Below, piece after piece: positions 13,055 to 31,491 of a DNA stretch of 39,530 bases. Position 1 is the first letter of the stretch. Each line of letters begins with the position of its first letter. The stretch is from positions 1-39,530 of the forward strand of contig DAIDGS010000004.1 of the NCBI GenBank assembly GCA_027459845.1. Direction: 5' to 3'. The position numbers were made by a program, and so were the translations under genes. Under the pieces are notes generated by a model. That model saw nothing but the letters and a program-made list of their open reading frames with translations. It did not search any database and was not told the DNA's origin. Origin of the DNA: Vulcanimicrobiota bacterium. Its GTDB lineage: Bacteria > Vulcanimicrobiota > Vulcanimicrobiia > Vulcanimicrobiales > Vulcanimicrobiaceae.

Positions 13055-15124
13055 GTGAACCTGCACCCTCGGTTAGCGTGCGTCGCGCTCGGCGCGGCGG
13101 TCTTCCTCGCGGCGTTGCCGCCGCCGGCCGGCGCGCGTGCGTTGCGCGTGGTGCGTGCCGCCGACTACCGCAGGATCGTGCGCGTCGGCGATCCGGCGAT
13201 CGCTCCCGACGGTCGTCACGTCGCGCTGGTCGTCACGCGCGTGCGCTGGAACGCCGATCGTCGCCGCCGCGAGTTGATCTCGATCGACGTCGCGACCAAG
13301 GCGGTCAAGGTGCTCGCACGCGGTGGTGACGTTTCCAGCCCCGCCTATGCACCCGACGGCACGCAACTCGCCTTTCTCGCGACGCGTCCCCACGGCCGGC
13401 ACGACCAGGTGATGGTGATCCCGGCCGGTGGCGGCGCGATCCGGGCCGTGACCCGCGCCCCCGCCGGGGTCGACGCGTTCGCGTGGCGTCCCGACGGGCG
13501 GGCGTTCGCCTACGCGGCCGTCGATCCGCGCCCGCACCGCACGGGCGCCGCGCGCTTTCGCAATAGCTTCGTGTTCACCACCGAACCGATCGTGGCGCAC
13601 TCCAAGCCGCGCCCGGACCACCTCTTCGTCGTGGGAAGCGGCGGCGGCGCAGCGACGCAGCTCACCTTCGGCCCCGCGAGCGCGCTCGACTTTTCATGGT
13701 CGCCCGACGGCAAGCGCATCGCGCTCACGTTGGCGCCCGATGCGATCGCCAACGATAGCGCCTATTCGCACGTCGCGCTCCTCGACGTCGCCTCGAAGCG
13801 GCTGCGCGCGTTGACCGGCCGCAGCATGTGGGAGTTCGATCCCACCTTCTCGCCCGACGGAAGCAAGATCGCCTATCTGTATTCCGACGGCGATCCTCAA
13901 ATCGCGCCGACCGAGCTGTACGTGACCACCCCGCACGGTGGTCCTGGAACGGTGCTCGCGCCGGCGCTCGATCGTCCGGTCGGCGATGCCGTGTGGTCGC
14001 ACGGTGGGCGCAGTCTCATCGTCACGGCCCCCAGCGGCTTGACGAATGCGCTCTATCGCATTGCGCTCACCGGTCGCGTGCAACGGCTCGGCGTCGGAAA
14101 CGTCACGCCGGGCATTCCGCTGGTGACGACCGGCGGCGCCGCGACGCCGCCGTTGCGCGGCGCGCTGGCAAACGACGGCGCGCTGGCGTTTTCGGGCAGT
14201 TGGACGAACCGCGCGCCCGAGGCCTACGTGCGCTTGCCCGATGGCACGACGCGGCAGCTGACTTCAGTCAACGCGGCGCTCGATCGGATCGCCTGGGGCA
14301 GCGCTACGCGCATTCGCTTCGCCACCACCACCGGCACCCGCGGCGACGGCGTGCTTTACCGTCCGCCCGGCTTCGTGGCCGGTCGACGGTACCCGCTGGT
14401 GCTGTACGTCCACGGCGGGCCGGGCGATCCGACCCAACTGAGCTTCGACTTTTGGGCGCAACTGATGGCGGCACGCGGCTGGCTGGTGCTGCGCCCCAAC
14501 TATCGCGGCAGTCCCAATCTGGGCAGCGTCTATCAGCGCGCGATCTTCGACGATCCCGACGCCGGTCCGGGCGACGACCTGATGTCGGCGCTGCACGTGG
14601 TAGAGGCGCAGGGGATCGTCGATCCGGCGCGGATTGCGGTCTGCGGCTGGTCGTACGGCGGAATCATGGCCGCCTGGATGATCTCCAAGTATCACATCTG
14701 GAACTCGGCGGTGGTGGGCGCGTCGGTCAACGACTGGATCGCCGACTACGGCACCGCCGACGACAGTCTGGCCGACCGCGATCTGTTCCCCGGCTCGCCG
14801 TTCGTCGGCGACAACGCCGCACAGTGGCGCGCCGCCTCGGCCATCACCTACGCAGCCGACGTGACCACGCCGGTCTTGATCCTCTCCGATGTCGGCGACA
14901 ATCGCGATCCGTTCGCCACCTCGTCGATGTACTGGCGCGCGCTGCGCGACAACGGTAAGGATGCCACCCTGCGAGTCTGGCCGATTGCCGGCCACTTTCC
15001 GGACGATCCGGTTCGCACCGCCGACGTCTATCACTACTGGATCGCCTACCTGGCGGCGCACTTCACGCTGGGCGCGCTGCGTGCGACCGGCCACGTTCGG
15101 GCGCCGGCCCACGGTTTGCCTTGA
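13055..15124 (+). CDS. Secreted S9 family peptidase (acylaminoacyl/dipeptidyl peptidase-like)
   Basis: The 689-residue product starts at GTG 13055 with a signal peptide (ACVALGAAVFLAALPPPAGARA). The first two thirds hold WD40-like/TolB-like beta-propeller repeats with FSPDGSKIAYL and WSPDGKRIALT units. The last third is an alpha/beta-hydrolase domain. The catalytic triad is visible: Ser533 in GWSYGG, Asp615 in GDNRDP and His647 in AGHFPDD. S9 peptidases trim short peptides entering past the propeller. The protein probably works in the periplasm or outside the cell. Its stop codon lies inside the -35 box of the next promoter. Confidence 0.92.
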   Translation: MNLHPRLACVALGAAVFLAALPPPAGARALRVVRAADYRRIVRVGDPAIAPDGRHVALVVTRVRWNADRRRRELISIDVATKAVKVLARGGDVSSPAYAPDGTQLAFLATRPHGRHDQVMVIPAGGGAIRAVTRAPAGVDAFAWRPDGRAFAYAAVDPRPHRTGAARFRNSFVFTTEPIVAHSKPRPDHLFVVGSGGGAATQLTFGPASALDFSWSPDGKRIALTLAPDAIANDSAYSHVALLDVASKRLRALTGRSMWEFDPTFSPDGSKIAYLYSDGDPQIAPTELYVTTPHGGPGTVLAPALDRPVGDAVWSHGGRSLIVTAPSGLTNALYRIALTGRVQRLGVGNVTPGIPLVTTGGAATPPLRGALANDGALAFSGSWTNRAPEAYVRLPDGTTRQLTSVNAALDRIAWGSATRIRFATTTGTRGDGVLYRPPGFVAGRRYPLVLYVHGGPGDPTQLSFDFWAQLMAARGWLVLRPNYRGSPNLGSVYQRAIFDDPDAGPGDDLMSALHVVEAQGIVDPARIAVCGWSYGGIMAAWMISKYHIWNSAVVGASVNDWIADYGTADDSLADRDLFPGSPFVGDNAAQWRAASAITYAADVTTPVLILSDVGDNRDPFATSSMYWRALRDNGKDATLRVWPIAGHFPDDPVRTADVYHYWIAYLAAHFTLGALRATGHVRAPAHGLP

Positions 15125-15150
15125 CAAGCGCGGCACGGGTGTGGTTGCAT
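15121..15150 (+). promoter_or_regulatory. Sigma-70-type promoter of the aromatic amino acid operon
   Basis: A perfect -35 TTGACA (15121-15126) is followed after 18 bases by TTGCAT (15145-15150), preceded by an extended -10 TGG. The -10 is imperfect at its second position. Transcription would begin near 15157-15160, at or just before the ATG of the leader peptide, so the leader would be translated from a leaderless transcript. Confidence 0.55.
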
Positions 15151-15159
15151 GGCCTCACG

Positions 15160-15219
15160 ATGCGCGCTTCGTACGCCTATTGGTATCCCGCATGCCGTCC
15201 GCAGGGCCGGCGAGGGTAG
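15160..15219 (+). CDS. Aromatic-codon leader peptide (attenuator)
   Basis: A 19-codon frame encodes MRASYAYWYPACRPQGRRG and ends in TAG at 15217-15219. Three Tyr codons and one Trp codon fall within five positions (15172-15186). It is the only reading frame between the promoter and the terminator hairpin, and it sits just upstream of a fused prephenate dehydratase/DAHP synthase, AroH and TyrA. This is the classic arrangement of an amino-acid leader peptide whose ribosome stalls when charged Tyr or Trp tRNA is scarce. No ribosome binding site is seen, and start at the 5' end of the mRNA is inferred. No Phe codon is present. Confidence 0.65.
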   Translation: MRASYAYWYPACRPQGRRG

Positions 15220-15259
15220 CGTTTGCGCCGAAGGTCGAAGTACCGCACGAGCATCTGAC

Positions 15260-15289
15260 GCGAGCCCCCGCCCACCGGCGGGGGTTCGT
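15260..15289 (+). terminator. GC-rich hairpin, attenuator terminator
   Basis: An 8-bp perfect GC stem (15265-15272 with 15277-15284, loop CACC) extends outward by G-U, A-U, G-C and C-G pairs. The downstream tract TTCGTCGTTTCTT is only moderately U-rich, so termination may be partial. It lies 31 bases before the GTG of the fusion gene. Confidence 0.65.
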
Positions 15290-15319
15290 CGTTTCTTCGC
15301 AACGGGGACGAGAACGATC

Positions 15320-17086
15320 GTGACCATCGGAGTCTATCAAGGCGTTGAGGGCGCGCACTCGCAGTTGGTGCTGGCGCACTACCTGCGCGCGCTCGGGGAT
15401 GACGGCGGCGGCTTCGGCGTGCCGGCCTACCGGCAGCTCGCGACGGCGCTGATCGCGCAGCGCGCCGGCGTCGGCGTGTTGCCGATCGAAACGGCGATCG
15501 GCGGTACCGTGCGCGAAGCCTACGACGTGGTCGCCGAGTTCGAACTCGCACCGTACGCCGAGATTGCGTGGCGCACCGACCATCGGCTGCTCGGCGTGCG
15601 CGGCGCCGCGCTCGCCGGCGTGCGCGAGGTGCTGGCGCACCCATTGGTGCTCGCCGAGTGCGGGCACTTCTTGGCGGGATTGCGCGATGCGCGTGCGATT
15701 CCGTGCGAAGATACGGGAATCGCCGCGCGCGAGGTGGCGCGCGGCGGCAATCCGGCGGTTGCGGCGCTGGCGCCGGCCGCTGCGGCGGCGATCTACGATC
15801 TCGACGAACTGGCGCGCAACTGCGCCGACGATCCGGCAACCTACACGCGGTTCTTGGTGGTCGGGCCACCCGGCAGCGCCGCACCGCACGCGCGTGGCGA
15901 GGGATCGCGACGCAAGACCTCGCTGATCTTTGCGGTCGAGGAACGCGTCGGCTCGCTGGCGGCCGCGCTCGGCGCGCTGGCCAATCGCGGCATCAACGGC
16001 GACCGGCTCGACTCCAAGCCGCATCTGGGACACGGCACCGAGCGGCTGTTCTACGTCGACTTCGACGGCGACGTCGCCGACGCCAACGTCGCCGCGGCGC
16101 TACACGACCTTCGAGCGATTTGCAAGCAGACGGTCGTCATCGGCAGTTACGATGCGCACGCCGGTGCGCCGATCGGCGCGCCGGCCGATGCCCCACCGCC
16201 GCGTTCGGCCGCGGTGCGCGAGCGCGCGCCGCGCGCGCCGAGCGCCAACGGCAGTCCGTTTCCGCGCGTGGCGCGGACCGCCAATCCGCTCGGAAGCGTG
16301 GTGCGCGTCGGCGGGCTCACGGTCGGCGATGGAAGTTTTACGATCGTCGCCGGTCCGTGTTCGGTCGAGTCGCGCGAGCAGATCGTCGCGACCGCGCAGG
16401 CGGTGGCGGCACGCGGCGCCGCCATGCTGCGCGGCGGCGCCTTCAAGCCGCGCACCAGTCCGTACGCCTTTCAAGGCTTGGGCTGGGACGGCGTCGAGTT
16501 GCTCGCGGAGGCCGGGCGCGCGAGCGGTTTGCCGACCGTCAGCGAGGTGATGAGCATCGATCAGGTCGAGCGCATGGCCGCCCGGATCGACGTGCTGCAG
16601 ATCGGCGCGCGCAACATGCAGAACTTCGACTTGCTGCGCGCGGTCGGGCGCAGCGGCCGGCCGGTGTTGCTCAAGCGCGGCTTCGCCGCCACGATCGACG
16701 AGATGTTGGCCGCTGCCGAGTACATTCTCGCCGAGGGAAACCCCAACGTCATCCTGTGCGAACGCGGTATCCGCACCTTCGAACCGGCCACCCGGAACAC
16801 GCTCGATCTTTCGGCGGTGCCGGTGTTGCGCGAGCGCTCGCACCTTCCGGTGTTCGTCGATCCGAGTCACGGCGTCGGCGTCAGTCGCTGGGTTGCGCCG
16901 CTCTGTCGCGCGGCCAAGGCGGTCGGGGCGCACGGACTCTTGCTCGAAGTGCATCCCAATCCGAGCGAAGCCAAGAGCGACAAGGAACAGGCGCTGACGT
17001 TCGATGAGTTCGCGCAGGTCGTCGACGAACTGGAACGCATTCCGCTGCCGGATGCCCCGCGCGCGCATCCCGGTGCGTGGCGATGA
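15320..17086 (+). CDS. Prephenate dehydratase - ACT - DAHP synthase fusion protein
   Basis: One 588-residue frame joins two enzymes from opposite ends of Phe synthesis. Residues 2-195 are prephenate dehydratase: GVYQGVEGAHSQL at the N-terminus, a PIETAIGG variant of the PIENS motif, and the catalytic TRF motif (Thr176-Arg177-Phe178). Residues 199-277 form an ACT domain with DSKP (231-234) in place of the usual ESRP Phe-binding motif. After an Ala/Pro-rich linker comes a class I beta-type DAHP synthase (about 320-575): AGPCSVES (Cys347), FKPRTSPY, LLKRGF (Lys452), CERGIRTFE and VDPSHG (His517). The ACT domain sits where many DAHP synthases carry their regulatory domain, so Phe could control both activities. 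The GTG start follows the attenuator; the stop overlaps aroH. Confidence 0.92.
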   Translation: MTIGVYQGVEGAHSQLVLAHYLRALGDDGGGFGVPAYRQLATALIAQRAGVGVLPIETAIGGTVREAYDVVAEFELAPYAEIAWRTDHRLLGVRGAALAGVREVLAHPLVLAECGHFLAGLRDARAIPCEDTGIAAREVARGGNPAVAALAPAAAAAIYDLDELARNCADDPATYTRFLVVGPPGSAAPHARGEGSRRKTSLIFAVEERVGSLAAALGALANRGINGDRLDSKPHLGHGTERLFYVDFDGDVADANVAAALHDLRAICKQTVVIGSYDAHAGAPIGAPADAPPPRSAAVRERAPRAPSANGSPFPRVARTANPLGSVVRVGGLTVGDGSFTIVAGPCSVESREQIVATAQAVAARGAAMLRGGAFKPRTSPYAFQGLGWDGVELLAEAGRASGLPTVSEVMSIDQVERMAARIDVLQIGARNMQNFDLLRAVGRSGRPVLLKRGFAATIDEMLAAAEYILAEGNPNVILCERGIRTFEPATRNTLDLSAVPVLRERSHLPVFVDPSHGVGVSRWVAPLCRAAKAVGAHGLLLEVHPNPSEAKSDKEQALTFDEFAQVVDELERIPLPDAPRAHPGAWR

Positions 17087-17463
17087 ACGCGCCGCGCGTA
17101 CGCGGGGTGCGCGGCGCGATCGCCGTCGACGCCGACACCGCCGAGGCGATCGCGGCGGCTACTCAGCGCCTACTGCGCGCGATGCTCGAGCGCAATCGCC
17201 TCGACCTCGACGACGTCGCCTCGGCGCTCTTCAGCCTCACGCCGGATCTGCGCGCGGCCTTTCCGGCACACGCCGCGCGCGCGATCGGTTGGTCGCACGT
17301 CCCGATGTTGCACTGCACCGAAGTCGACGTGCCGGGCGCGCTACCGCGGTGCATTCGCGTGCTGCTCCACGTGACGACCGCGTTACGCCCCGATGAAATC
17401 GCGCACGTCTATCTCGACGGCGCCGCGGTCTTGCGACCCGACTTGACGGGCGCCCAGGCGTGA
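17083..17463 (+). CDS. aroH: Chorismate mutase, AroH type
   Basis: The 126-residue product matches the trimeric Bacillus-type monofunctional chorismate mutase along its length. Key blocks are RGVRGAIAVDADTAEAI, the NRLDLDDVASALFSLTPDL stretch, ARAIGWSHVPMLH, and the C-terminal CIRVLLHV and HVYLDGAAVLRPDL. It converts chorismate to prephenate, the substrate of the enzymes encoded on both sides. The ATG overlaps the fusion-gene stop (ATGA), and its own stop overlaps the tyrA start (GTGA), so the three genes are tightly coupled. AroH enzymes are usually not feedback regulated, so control would rest on the fusion protein and the attenuator. Confidence 0.93.
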   Translation: MNAPRVRGVRGAIAVDADTAEAIAAATQRLLRAMLERNRLDLDDVASALFSLTPDLRAAFPAHAARAIGWSHVPMLHCTEVDVPGALPRCIRVLLHVTTALRPDEIAHVYLDGAAVLRPDLTGAQA

Positions 17464-18203
17464 GCGCGATCCTCGGTATCGTCGGGCTGGGCGCGATCGG
17501 CGGGTCGATCGGTCTGCGGGCGCGCGCGCTGGGCTGGCCGACGCTCGGGTACGACGCCTCGCCGGAGGCGGCGGCGCTGGCGGAACGCGTGGGCGTCGTC
17601 AACGCGCTCGGCACCCGGGCGGACCTCTACGCCCGCGCCACGACAATCGTCATCGCCGCCCATCTGGACGGCACCCTCGACGAGCTCGCCCGGCTCCGGC
17701 GCGAGCCGGCCGCCGCGTCGTTGATCCTCGACGTGGCGTCGGTCAAGCGACCGGTCGTCGCGGCCGGGCGAGCGGTGCCCGGCTTCGTCGCCACGCACCC
17801 GATGAGCGGCACCGCCGCATCGGGGGCGGCGGCCGCGCGCGCCGATCTCTTCGAGGGTCGCCCGTGGCTCTACGTGCCCTCCACCGATCGCGCGCTCGAC
17901 CGCCGTGTCGAGGCGTTCGTGGCGGCGATGGGTGCCCGGCCGGTCGCGGTCGATGCCGCCGCGCACGACGCGGCCGTCGCGCTGACCTCGCACCTGCCGC
18001 AAGTGCTGGCCTGGGAGTTCGCGCGCATGGTCGCCGAGCGCGGCATCCCGGAGTACTACTTCGGTCCGGTGGCACGCGAACTGCTGCGGATCGCACCGAT
18101 GGCGACGGCGCTCTGGGAGCCGGTGCTGCGCGCCAACGCCGACGCGATCGATCCCCTGCGCGAGGAGCTGGCGCATCGGCTGGGGCGCGTCCAAGGCGTT
18201 TGA
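17460..18203 (+). CDS. tyrA: Prephenate/arogenate dehydrogenase
   Basis: This 247-residue protein oxidatively decarboxylates prephenate (or arogenate) toward Tyr. The N-terminal Rossmann fold has [13 protein letters not shown] (5-17). The catalytic region includes the [10 protein letters not shown] block and a helical C-terminal dimerisation domain ([13 protein letters not shown]). It is shorter than TyrA proteins with an added ACT or mutase domain, so it probably lacks its own feedback domain. Start is GTG overlapping the aroH stop. The neighbours supply prephenate and the first pathway step. Cofactor and substrate preference cannot be decided by eye. Confidence 0.92.
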
Positions 18204-18235: not shown

Positions 18236-18259
18236 GAGGCCCTGGGGGCCTTAATTTTT
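18236..18259 (+). terminator. Intrinsic terminator-like hairpin between tyrA and rpsU
   Basis: AGGCCC (18237-18242) pairs with GGGCCT (18246-18251) around a 3-base loop, with a G-U extension. TTAATTTTT follows, the best U-tract in the window. It probably ends the aromatic operon. It also lies just after a promoter, so it may act as an rpsU leader structure. Confidence 0.65.
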
Positions 18260-29579: not shown

Positions 29580-29669
29580 GGAGAGATGGCCGAGCGGCTG
29601 AAGGCGGCGGTTTGCTAAACCGTTATACGATGTAAAGTCGTATCGAGGGTTCGAATCCCTCTCTCTCCG
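29580..29669 (+). tRNA. tRNA-Ser (GCT)
   Basis: Acceptor GGAGAGA pairs with TCTCTCC and a G discriminator. The anticodon loop TTGCTAA carries GCT. A long variable arm (TATACGATGTAAAGTCGTAT) marks a class II serine tRNA, and the T-arm has GGTTCGAATCC. CCA is not encoded. Confidence 0.96.
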
Positions 29670-29773
29670 AAGGACAGGATGTCCGGAGTGCCGCGCGCAC
29701 CCCTTTCCTGTTTCTGGAGGAGGTGCGCGGCGCGAAGCGTATCAGGGAAAGTCGCGCACGGGGTTGCGCACGC

Positions 29774-29847
29774 GCGGTCGTAGCTCAATTGGATAGAGCA
29801 ACAGGCTACGAACTTGTAGGTTGGGGGTTCGAGTCCCTCCGACCGCG
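29774..29847 (+). tRNA. tRNA-Arg (ACG)
   Basis: Acceptor GCGGTCG pairs with CGACCGC, the D-arm is GCTC...GAGC, and the loop CTACGAA carries ACG, whose A is normally deaminated to inosine by TadA encoded nearby. The T-arm has GGTTCGAGTCC. CCA is not encoded. Confidence 0.96.
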
Positions 29848-29860
29848 ATTTTGCGAAACG

Positions 29861-29889
29861 GAAGCCTCGGCGGCGCGCCGGGGCTTCTT
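29861..29889 (+). terminator. Possible terminator after tRNA-Arg(ACG)
   Basis: GAAGCCTCGGC (29861-29871) pairs with GCCGGGGCTTC (29877-29887), 11 pairs with one T-G wobble and a 5-base loop. Only TT follows, so the U-tract is weak. Confidence 0.45.
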
Positions 29890-29943
29890 GCCGTAGCGCT
29901 TCGGGCGGGTGCCGGCTGCAACCGCGTCGTAGCGCATCAGCAT

Positions 29944-30015
29944 GGCTCGGTAGCTCAGGGGTAGAGCAGGGGACTCATAAGCCCTTGGTCGTAGGTTCGA
30001 ATCCTACCCGAGCCA
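29944..30015 (+). tRNA. tRNA with CAT anticodon (Met, or Ile with lysidine)
   Basis: Acceptor GGCTCGG pairs with CCGAGCC and discriminator A. The anticodon loop CTCATAA carries CAT. The stem (GGGGA/GCCCT) has a 31-39 A-G mismatch and a G-U at its top. The region around GAGCAGG...GACTCATAA...CTTGGTCG resembles both elongator Met and the Ile(CAT) tRNA modified by TilS, so the identity is left open. CCA is not encoded. Confidence 0.92.
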
Positions 30016-30051
30016 GGAAATCCTCAGTAAGGAACACGGTCGAAAACAGCG

Positions 30052-30285
30052 ATGTCCACAATCCCCTGCGATTTCTGTCCGCATCCGGTCGATCGCGGCC
30101 AGATGGAAGAAATCGAAATCTCTCACTACGTTCCGGATAGCTCCGGCGACGATCTCGCGTACGCGCGGACGTACTTCTTCGGGCATCCCGACTGCGTGCG
30201 CAAGTTCTATCGCACGCTCGTCGACCACAAGCTCGACCTGTTCAAGCACATGCCAACCGGCTCGCCGCCGGAGAGTCCGCGCTAG
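30052..30285 (+). CDS. Small Cys-containing protein, probably zinc-binding
   Basis: A 77-residue frame lies between two tRNA genes. It contains CDFC (Cys6, Cys9), several His and a later HPDC (Cys50), a possible zinc-binding set, then a helical end (VRKFYRTLVDHKLDLFKHM). Codon usage is GC-ending like real genes in the window. No good ribosome binding site is close to the ATG. I know no family for it; it may be a small conserved protein of this lineage. Confidence 0.55.
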   Translation: MSTIPCDFCPHPVDRGQMEEIEISHYVPDSSGDDLAYARTYFFGHPDCVRKFYRTLVDHKLDLFKHMPTGSPPESPR

Positions 30286-30296
30286 ACGCGCGCCGC

Positions 30297-30370
<74 letters not shown>

Positions 30371-30375
30371 AGTCT

Positions 30376-30771
30376 TTACTGCAACGTGAGTTCGTCGGCC
30401 AGCGCGCGCGCCTTCGCCTTGACGAGGTCGCGGATTTCGCGCACCCGCGCCGGCGACGCGCCCTTCGGATCGGGCAGCGCCCAGTCGGCATCGACGCGCG
30501 GCACGCCCTGCACGTCGCACCCCATGGTGATGATGCGCAGCGCCCGCGCCGCCACGGCCGGGTCGATGAGTTTCGGGCGCGCCTCCGCGATGTCGATACC
30601 GTCGTCGCGCATCGCCGCTACGACTCCCGGATCGGGATGCTCGGCCGCCTCGGTGCCGGCCGATGCGACGTCGAGCGCATCGCCGACGAAGGCGCGCAGG
30701 TAGGCTTCGGCCATTTGGCTGCGGCCGGTATTGTGCCGGCAGACGAAGAGGATCAGCGGCTTGGGTGGCAT
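30376..30771 (-). CDS. Low-molecular-weight phosphatase/arsenate reductase-like protein
   Basis: The 131-residue protein has the LMW-PTP P-loop C-x5-R: VCRHNTGRSQMAEAYL (Cys11, Arg17) and the catalytic Asp in LPDPKG (Asp101). The loop sequence with HNTGRS is that of ArsC-type arsenate reductases. Only one further Cys in the resolving region (Cys85, MGCDVQGV) is present, not the Cys pair of thioredoxin-coupled ArsC. A single-Cys mechanism or a protein phosphatase role is therefore possible. The ATG has AAAGGA about 6 bases upstream. It converges on tRNA-Arg(CCG), 5 bases apart. Confidence 0.85.
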   Translation of the reverse strand: MPPKPLILFVCRHNTGRSQMAEAYLRAFVGDALDVASAGTEAAEHPDPGVVAAMRDDGIDIAEARPKLIDPAVAARALRIITMGCDVQGVPRVDADWALPDPKGASPARVREIRDLVKAKARALADELTLQ

Positions 30772-30832
30772 CGAGCATCCTTTGCGAGTGCGACGAAGGG
30801 GTCTGTCGGCGACGCGCGCCGGCACTGTCGAT

Positions 30833-30861
30833 AGCCTGCGCGATCCATCGAGATTTGTCAA
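30833..30861 (-). promoter_or_regulatory. Candidate promoter of the ArsC-like gene
   Basis: On the minus strand, a perfect -35 TTGACA (30861-30856) and a weak -10 CAGGCT (30838-30833) are 17 bases apart, about 60 bases upstream of the ATG at 30771. Confidence 0.45.
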
Positions 30862-30903
30862 TATAGCGGCTTCTGTGCCGGCGGCGTGGAAAAGCGCCGG
30901 GCG

Positions 30904-31386
30904 ATGGACGAAGACCAGCGGTATCTGCGCCGGGCGATCGAGCTGGCCGCGCGCGCGGCCGAGGCCGGCGACGTGCCGATCGGCGCGGTGCTGCTGGTCG
31001 GCGATCGTCACTTCGAGGCGTGGAACGAAAAGGAGCGTCGTCCCGATCCGACCGCCCATGCCGAAGTGCTGCTGATTCGCGAGGCCGCGGCTGCGCTCGG
31101 CCGGTGGCGGCTCTCGGACGCCACCCTTTACGTCACCAAGGAGCCCTGCGTCATGTGCGCCGGTGCAATCGTGGCCGCGCGCATTGGGCGCGTGGTCTAC
31201 GGCGCGCCCGATCCGAAGGGCGGCGCCGACGTCAGCGTCTTCGACGTCTTGCGGTCGCCCAAAACCAACCATCGGCTGGAGGTTACCTCGGGCGTCTGCG
31301 CGACCGAAGCCGCCGAGCAACTGCAACGCTTCTTTCGCGAGCGTCGCGGCAAAGGCGAAGAAGGTTTGCCCGATTCGCCGCCGTAG
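30904..31386 (+). CDS. tadA: tRNA-specific adenosine deaminase
   Basis: The 160-residue protein carries the deaminase zinc motifs HAE (His52, Glu54) and PCVMC (Pro81, Cys82, Cys85), with TadA features VPIGAVLL, NEKERRPDPTAHAE and the KTNHRLEVTSGV stretch. It converts A34 to inosine in tRNA-Arg(ACG), which is encoded about 1.1 kb upstream. The start at ATG 30904 fits the family; a GTG at 30886 is the alternative. tRNA-Ser(CGA) follows 14 bases later. Confidence 0.95.
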   Translation: MDEDQRYLRRAIELAARAAEAGDVPIGAVLLVGDRHFEAWNEKERRPDPTAHAEVLLIREAAAALGRWRLSDATLYVTKEPCVMCAGAIVAARIGRVVYGAPDPKGGADVSVFDVLRSPKTNHRLEVTSGVCATEAAEQLQRFFRERRGKGEEGLPDSPP

Positions 31387-31400
31387 AGAGGCGGTCGCGC

Positions 31401-31491
31401 GGAGAGGTGGTCGAGTGGTTGAAGGCACCCGCCTCGAAAGCGGGCGAACGTGATGAGCGTTCCGTGAGTTCGAATCTCACCCTCTCCGCCA
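31401..31491 (+). tRNA. tRNA-Ser (CGA), with encoded CCA
   Basis: Acceptor GGAGAGG pairs with CCTCTCC, discriminator G and CCA (31489-31491). Stem CCCGC/GCGGG holds the loop CTCGAAA, anticodon CGA. A long variable arm (GAACGTGATGAGCGTTC) and T-arm GTGAGTTCGAATCTCAC complete a class II serine tRNA. Its 3' end starts a 141-bp tandem repeat. Confidence 0.96.

Follow-up and report, generated by a model that had tools for sequence, protein, structure and literature searches.

The window analysed here, a stretch of 39,530 nucleotides, belongs to a genome (G000) of 2.7 Mb that is 94% complete and whose named relatives are Candidatus Eremiobacterota assemblies. An operon for aromatic amino acid biosynthesis lies on its + strand. 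The first gene (15320..17086, GTG start) encodes a fused prephenate dehydratase (PDT)-ACT-DAHP synthase (Pfam PF00800, 4.7e-33; PF00793, 6.9e-78); the second (17077..17463) encodes a chorismate mutase of the AroH type (PF07736, 3.9e-44); and the third (17460..18203) encodes the prephenate dehydrogenase TyrA (PF02153, 3.3e-19; PF20463, 2.3e-6). A terminator-like hairpin at the operon end (18236..18252, + strand) was located by pattern scan and is assigned by consensus only. Upstream, on the same strand, a gene encoding an S9 peptidase ends at 15124. Elsewhere in the window, Rfam detected a cluster of five tRNA genes at 29580-31488, also on the + strand.

Between the peptidase gene and the fused gene there are a promoter, a short frame and a GC hairpin, all of which were found at the positions given in a preliminary description of this DNA. 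The -35 element of the operon promoter, TTGACA (15121..15126, + strand), lies at the very end of the peptidase gene and is separated by an 18-nt spacer from a -10-like element, TTGCAT (15145..15150, + strand), which is preceded by TGTGG. This element is a consensus assignment only and, with its upstream TGG, would be of the extended -10 type; the pattern TGG-T..A.T is conserved at this distance in 54 leaders. A promoter scan of the window did not call the promoter at 15121-15150, because its -10 element is a weak match. The frame (15160..15219, + strand) encodes a leader peptide of 19 codons, MRASYAYWYPACRPQGRRG, from the ATG at 15160 to a TAG stop codon at 15217-15219. Its regulatory codons, Tyr-Ala-Tyr-Trp-Tyr, occupy 15172..15186 (+ strand), and the whole frame holds three Tyr, one Trp and no Phe, as had been correctly counted before. 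The terminator (15257..15297, + strand), detected by pattern scan, includes a hairpin whose core at 15260-15289 has 13 pairs, ten of them G-C, and a loop of 4, followed by a T-rich tail in which the U tract (CGTTTCTTCG) is poor. Compared with shuffled sequences the terminator departs strongly from chance (z = -5.4).

A short frame with at least four aromatic residues in five codons appeared in one of 5000 dinucleotide shuffles of 15121-15319, and no second frame of 10-40 codons with four aromatics in five codons was found on either strand of the 39.5-kb window. In the minimum-energy fold of the full leader, the terminator is present and segment 1 (15175..15191, + strand; codons Ala6 to Ala11), the protector, is paired with 15210-15235. 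Segment 2 (15209..15226, + strand), the antiterminator strand, is composed of 2a (GGCGAGGG, 15209-15216) and 2b (GCGTTTGC, 15219-15226), and its partners in the window fold are 15264-15272 and 15257-15261/15251-15253. Segment 3 (15257..15272, + strand) makes up the terminator's left arm and can pair with segment 2 instead, as indicated by pattern scan, folding and family covariation. The pairing of GGCGAGGG with this arm in seven of eight positions, reported in the preliminary description, matches 15265-15272, and unconstrained folding recovers the antiterminator if the terminator's right arm is omitted. When the Tyr/Trp codons were removed, mimicking a stalled ribosome, and the right arm was absent, 15209-15217 paired with 15264-15272 and 15219-15223 with 15257-15261. 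These predicted folds (1:2 and 3:4 versus 2:3, with the Tyr/Trp codons in segment 1) are the classical attenuation arrangement.

Because the DNA is so GC-rich, seven of eight pairs against a C-rich arm are unremarkable. The energy of the window 2:3 duplex was not significant against a dinucleotide-shuffled segment 2 (z = -1.12, with 45 of 300 shuffles equally good), and the antiterminator step therefore rests on the family. In addition, the terminator form (-45.6 kcal/mol) outweighs the antiterminator (about -32.8 kcal/mol) at equilibrium, so that the attenuation model needs co-transcriptional timing, as known attenuators do.

The comparison set comprised 27 loci from the same GTDB family that encode the fused enzyme (L001-L026 and L030). 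The preliminary description had named relatives devoid of a Tyr/Trp frame or hairpin as evidence against an attenuator; the opposite was found, since the full leader, with aromatic-rich peptide, terminator and antiterminator strand, is conserved at 22 of the 27 loci. The order of leader frame, terminator and fused gene is kept in these 22, several of them with non-homologous upstream sequence, and the leader is also carried by two further named Eremiobacterota loci, L032 and L042. The aromatic-rich frames occur in the same place as in the window, with cores such as FSFAYWYYYF, AYAYWY, YAYAYYF, AFAYYYYF, WLYVAYYY, FSYFAYFFSW and WSYRYFYA; at least four aromatics in five codons were found in 16 of 20 orthologous leaders, versus 0.17 expected from shuffles. 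Conservation of the peptide across relatives is limited to this aromatic core, within which the mixture of Tyr, Trp and Phe varies. The leader of L023 is divergent and Phe-only, and that of L025 is interrupted by Ns. Leader peptide and terminator are absent from L002, L003 and L004 (genus g18), whose enzymes are 72-73% identical to that of the window. They are likewise absent from L031; over these four loci the fused enzyme is 71-73% identical to the window enzyme, and an apparent loss of the attenuator is seen in L002-L004 and L031. Loci L006 and L026 present an additional GC hairpin (CCGGCTCGTCGCCGG / CCGGCCAGACGCCGG) between the leader stop codon and the terminator.

The covariation of the two pairings, which the preliminary description had proposed as a check, was analysed in an alignment of 17 leader sequences and yielded both compensatory changes and partner-specific 2:3 pairing. 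For the terminator, 97% of cells are paired across the 17 relatives, with two-sided compensatory changes in 4 pairs (15 cells); for the antiterminator, 75% of cells are paired, with compensatory changes in 5 pairs (11 cells). Both values fall to 32-58% when the partner is slid by 1-3 columns. Differences in loop length shift the register, so that the antiterminator shows only modest covariation when counted by column. A register-free energy test was therefore added, in which the pairing of each segment 2 with its own segment 3 was compared with its pairing with that of every other species. The native mean was matched by 2 of 20,000 permutations for the 17 sequences and by 20 of 20,000 after dereplication to 13; dereplication controls kinship among the leaders only in part. 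No permutation among 50,000 matched it for 31 dereplicated aromatic leaders (z = -8.4), for 14 branched-chain leaders or for all 51, and shuffling of segment 2 in 60 leaders gave a mean z of -2.7 for the native 2:3 pairing. In the partner test, no member of the family has a weaker 2:3 pairing than the window. The specificity is clearly seen in L007 (GCCGGATCGGCG with CGCCGATCCGGC), L017 (GCCGCTTCGGC with GCCGAAGCGGC) and L006, where the loop is now GAAG and the partner has shifted to CTTCGGC; in these three the antiterminator extends over the left arm of the terminator and across the loop into the first bases of its right arm. The 1:2 hairpin is present in full folds of most relatives, and its partner specificity was not significant in the family permutation test.

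Start codons and Shine-Dalgarno sequences were surveyed in 54 dereplicated leaders, called by a rule of 34-43 nt. The start codon lies 36-42 nt from TTGAC, with the extended -10 visible, and a Shine-Dalgarno-like tetramer occurs in 6 of the 54 leaders versus 9 of 13 structural genes. Given this spacing and the lack of a Shine-Dalgarno sequence, the RNA from which the leader peptides are translated is probably leaderless or nearly so, and a 5′ UTR of about 1-4 nt is expected for the window leader.

Scanned over 117 genomes of the class, a covariance model built from the 17 leaders gave matches (E up to 1) in 81, and outside the class a single genome was matched at E up to 0.001. The genes downstream of 20 additional matches were examined with NCBIfam/Pfam; 18 were assigned and two had no family. 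The leader before thrC (threonine synthase) reads TTTTTTTTTTTT; in L146 (G006:C23:76110-77942) it has 12 consecutive Thr codons. Leaders of the LVLVVVILI type (Leu/Val/Ile) precede ilvB, ilvC and ilvE; SLLLLALAL precedes leuA; an Ile-rich leader precedes ilvA; and HWCVHWC precedes trpD. Leaders with CCC, MMMCC or MCMCC are found before sulfite reductase or sulfonate transport, MMCSMCRCMQM before homoserine dehydrogenase, and FWYRRYY before aroA. A separate search at trpE in the sister family f3 found leaders with WWWW, WWW or WW (L189, L194, L206, L200, L207 and L210). Under a fixed calling rule for the leaders (start codon 34-43 nt after TTGAC), cognate residues made up a fraction of 0.30, versus 0.17 under permutation of labels, and none of 100,000 permutations reached the observed value.

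In the window genome itself, a Met-rich leader with MRFMM (L141, G000:C128:35951-36058; MRFMMRCALWRRWG) stands with a terminator before a cystathionine gamma-synthase-like gene. No ilvB (acetolactate synthase) was found in G000 with a relative's protein as query, and threonine synthase (thrC) gave only a weak partial match (E = 3.5e-4), a gap that may reflect incompleteness or auxotrophy. Two Tyr-rich leaders with terminators, TYAYGYYYYGY in L155 (G011:C12:179862-181716) and SYYYGRF in L160 (G032:C33:176508-178348), precede genes for haem-oxygenase-like proteins, the former with a weak match to PF14518 and the latter with none; a sequence search found no relative of the L155 protein in the PDB. 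The leader codons suggest a link of this protein to tyrosine, and it is perhaps a CADD-like enzyme, forming p-aminobenzoate from tyrosine.

We propose that 15121-15297 very probably attenuates transcription by the classical, ribosome-mediated mechanism of trpL/pheL and senses aromatic amino acids. This reading is supported by the sequence elements, their conservation, the match between codons and pathway and the partner-specific alternative pairing across the family; we infer the transcription start, the stalling, the termination and the real signal amino acid. Transcription would start at or just before the leader ATG, giving a nearly leaderless RNA from which the 19-aa Tyr/Trp peptide is translated. 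With plentiful charged Tyr- or Trp-tRNA, the ribosome would get to the stop codon at 15217 and cover segment 2, the hairpin at 15257-15293 would form, and transcription would stop before the fused PDT-DAHP synthase gene. If aromatic tRNA were uncharged, the ribosome would stall at codons 5-9 and cover segment 1 (15175-15191); the free segment 2 (15209-15226) could then pair with segment 3 (15251-15272), which would block the terminator and allow transcription of pdt-aroF/aroH/tyrA.

A simpler origin of the hairpin would be that it terminates the S9 peptidase gene, which ends at 15124 on the same strand, about 135 nt upstream, and that the small frame is a coincidence. Against this, the gene has TTGACA at its very end, relatives whose upstream sequence differs share the promoter, frame and hairpin, the aromatic codons and the 2:3 pairing are conserved, and leaders of the same shape with matching codons precede other pathways. 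We rejected this explanation, which is very improbable, on the conservation of the leader beside other upstream sequence. Long leaders with a terminator before an amino-acid operon are also typical of T-boxes in Firmicutes, so the terminator might be controlled by a T-box, a riboswitch or an RNA-binding protein, with an incidental peptide. No Rfam leader or riboswitch family was reached at gathering score in the window or 14 related loci, Trp_leader and Phe_leader included; no T-box covariance match was obtained; and with E up to 10 the window leader gave only unrelated weak matches. T-box, riboswitch and the known leader families were rejected for this lack of Rfam matches. Moreover, the identity of the codons tracks the pathway, which only sensing by translation explains, and control by another RNA switch is just as hard to credit as a peptidase terminator.

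The leader peptide could also act by translational coupling or reinitiation, or in trans as a peptide or small RNA, attenuation being secondary; in S. meliloti, trpL gives rise to a small RNA and a peptide that are both active (PMC7298713). Here, on the other hand, the stop codon lies 100 nt before the structural gene with the terminator between them, too far for simple coupling, and the peptide is conserved in its aromatic core only, which makes this possibility unlikely, if slightly less so than the two preceding ones; a role in trans on top of attenuation is conceivable. Compatible with the attenuator proposed above, as a sub-case of it, is that a true attenuator responds chiefly to a single aromatic amino acid, or to starvation in general, instead of to Tyr and Trp jointly. 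The aroR leader before the aroF operon of C. glutamicum, with Phe-Tyr-Phe, responds to Phe and not to Tyr (PMC11802643), which calls for caution in reading specificity from codons alone, and the Y/W/F mixture varies among the orthologues. The stall region of the window, with three Tyr codons, one Trp codon and no Phe, is compatible with either case, and we regard this sub-case as quite possible, at a little under even chances. Since the orthologues mix Tyr, Trp and Phe, the sensor is best described as a general aromatic one. The Tyr/Trp attenuator of the preliminary description stands as regards frame, terminator and alternative pairing, all conserved, while its tuning to tyrA, deduced from the absence of Phe, goes too far.

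As in the E. coli pheL-pheA, pheST and trpL-trpEDCBA systems, the regulatory codons are predicted to lie in segment 1 and antiterminator and terminator are mutually exclusive; those systems differ in sensing a single amino acid, and the window leader has no match to the Rfam families Phe_leader and Trp_leader. The E. coli pheL, pheST and trpL leaders are Shine-Dalgarno-led. In Sinorhizobium meliloti the attenuator RNA of trpL (rnTrpL/peTrpL) begins at the ATG of the leader peptide and is leaderless (PMC7298713); compared by description, the window leader would resemble it in this respect; it differs in sensing Trp only and in preceding trpE(G). Leaderless short ORFs with polycysteine have been described in mycobacteria (Canestrari et al. 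2020, as cited in PMC13236596) and, as far as that citation goes, likewise encode leader peptides in which cognate codons are repeated, ahead of genes for amino acids; they belong to Actinobacteria and concern Cys only, and the Cys-rich leaders L150 and L154 are the nearer parallel here. In Actinobacteria, comparative genomics predicted classical attenuators for several amino-acid operons in one group, namely trp, trpS, leuS and ilvB (PMC1262725), to which the class studied here, from another phylum, adds candidates for thr, met, cys, ilvC, ilvE, leuA, aroA, aroF and tyrA, all found by one covariance model.

No attenuator was found described for the exact PDT-DAHP synthase-AroH-TyrA operon, as the preliminary description had held, but a close precedent exists in aroR-aroF of C. 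glutamicum. There, too, a DAHP synthase operon follows a leader peptide that contains aromatic codons, and ribosome stalling induces it, as we propose for the window; the system belongs to another phylum and operon and is Phe-responsive, whereas the family of the window has mixtures of Tyr, Trp and Phe before the fused PDT-DAHP synthase, aroH and tyrA. A search that covered the open-access literature found no study of attenuation in Eremiobacterota.

Ribosome-mediated attenuation is textbook knowledge, known mainly from Proteobacteria and Actinobacteria, and the mechanism itself is already established by trpL/pheL of E. coli and aroR of C. glutamicum. A class-wide attenuator regulon in an uncultured phylum appears to be undescribed in the open literature searched. 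On balance we favour, with some reserve, a class-wide control in Eremiobacterota: most amino-acid biosynthesis would be governed by leaderless leader-peptide attenuators that form a single homologous family, with duplication and recoding for the aromatic, branched-chain, Thr, Met and Cys pathways. Their antiterminator strand would, in addition, draw on the loop of the terminator and the beginning of its right arm. It is such a regulon, class-wide, recoded and probably leaderless, that a specialist would not expect. Its coherence and wide occurrence in an uncultured phylum would point to an old mechanism or to one with repeated origins. The leader codons would also predict operon function by indicating the product or the substrate of an unknown downstream gene. 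Finally, a question of RNA evolution becomes testable, namely how the recoding of one attenuator for another amino acid proceeds when a peptide and two exclusive folds have to be preserved at once.
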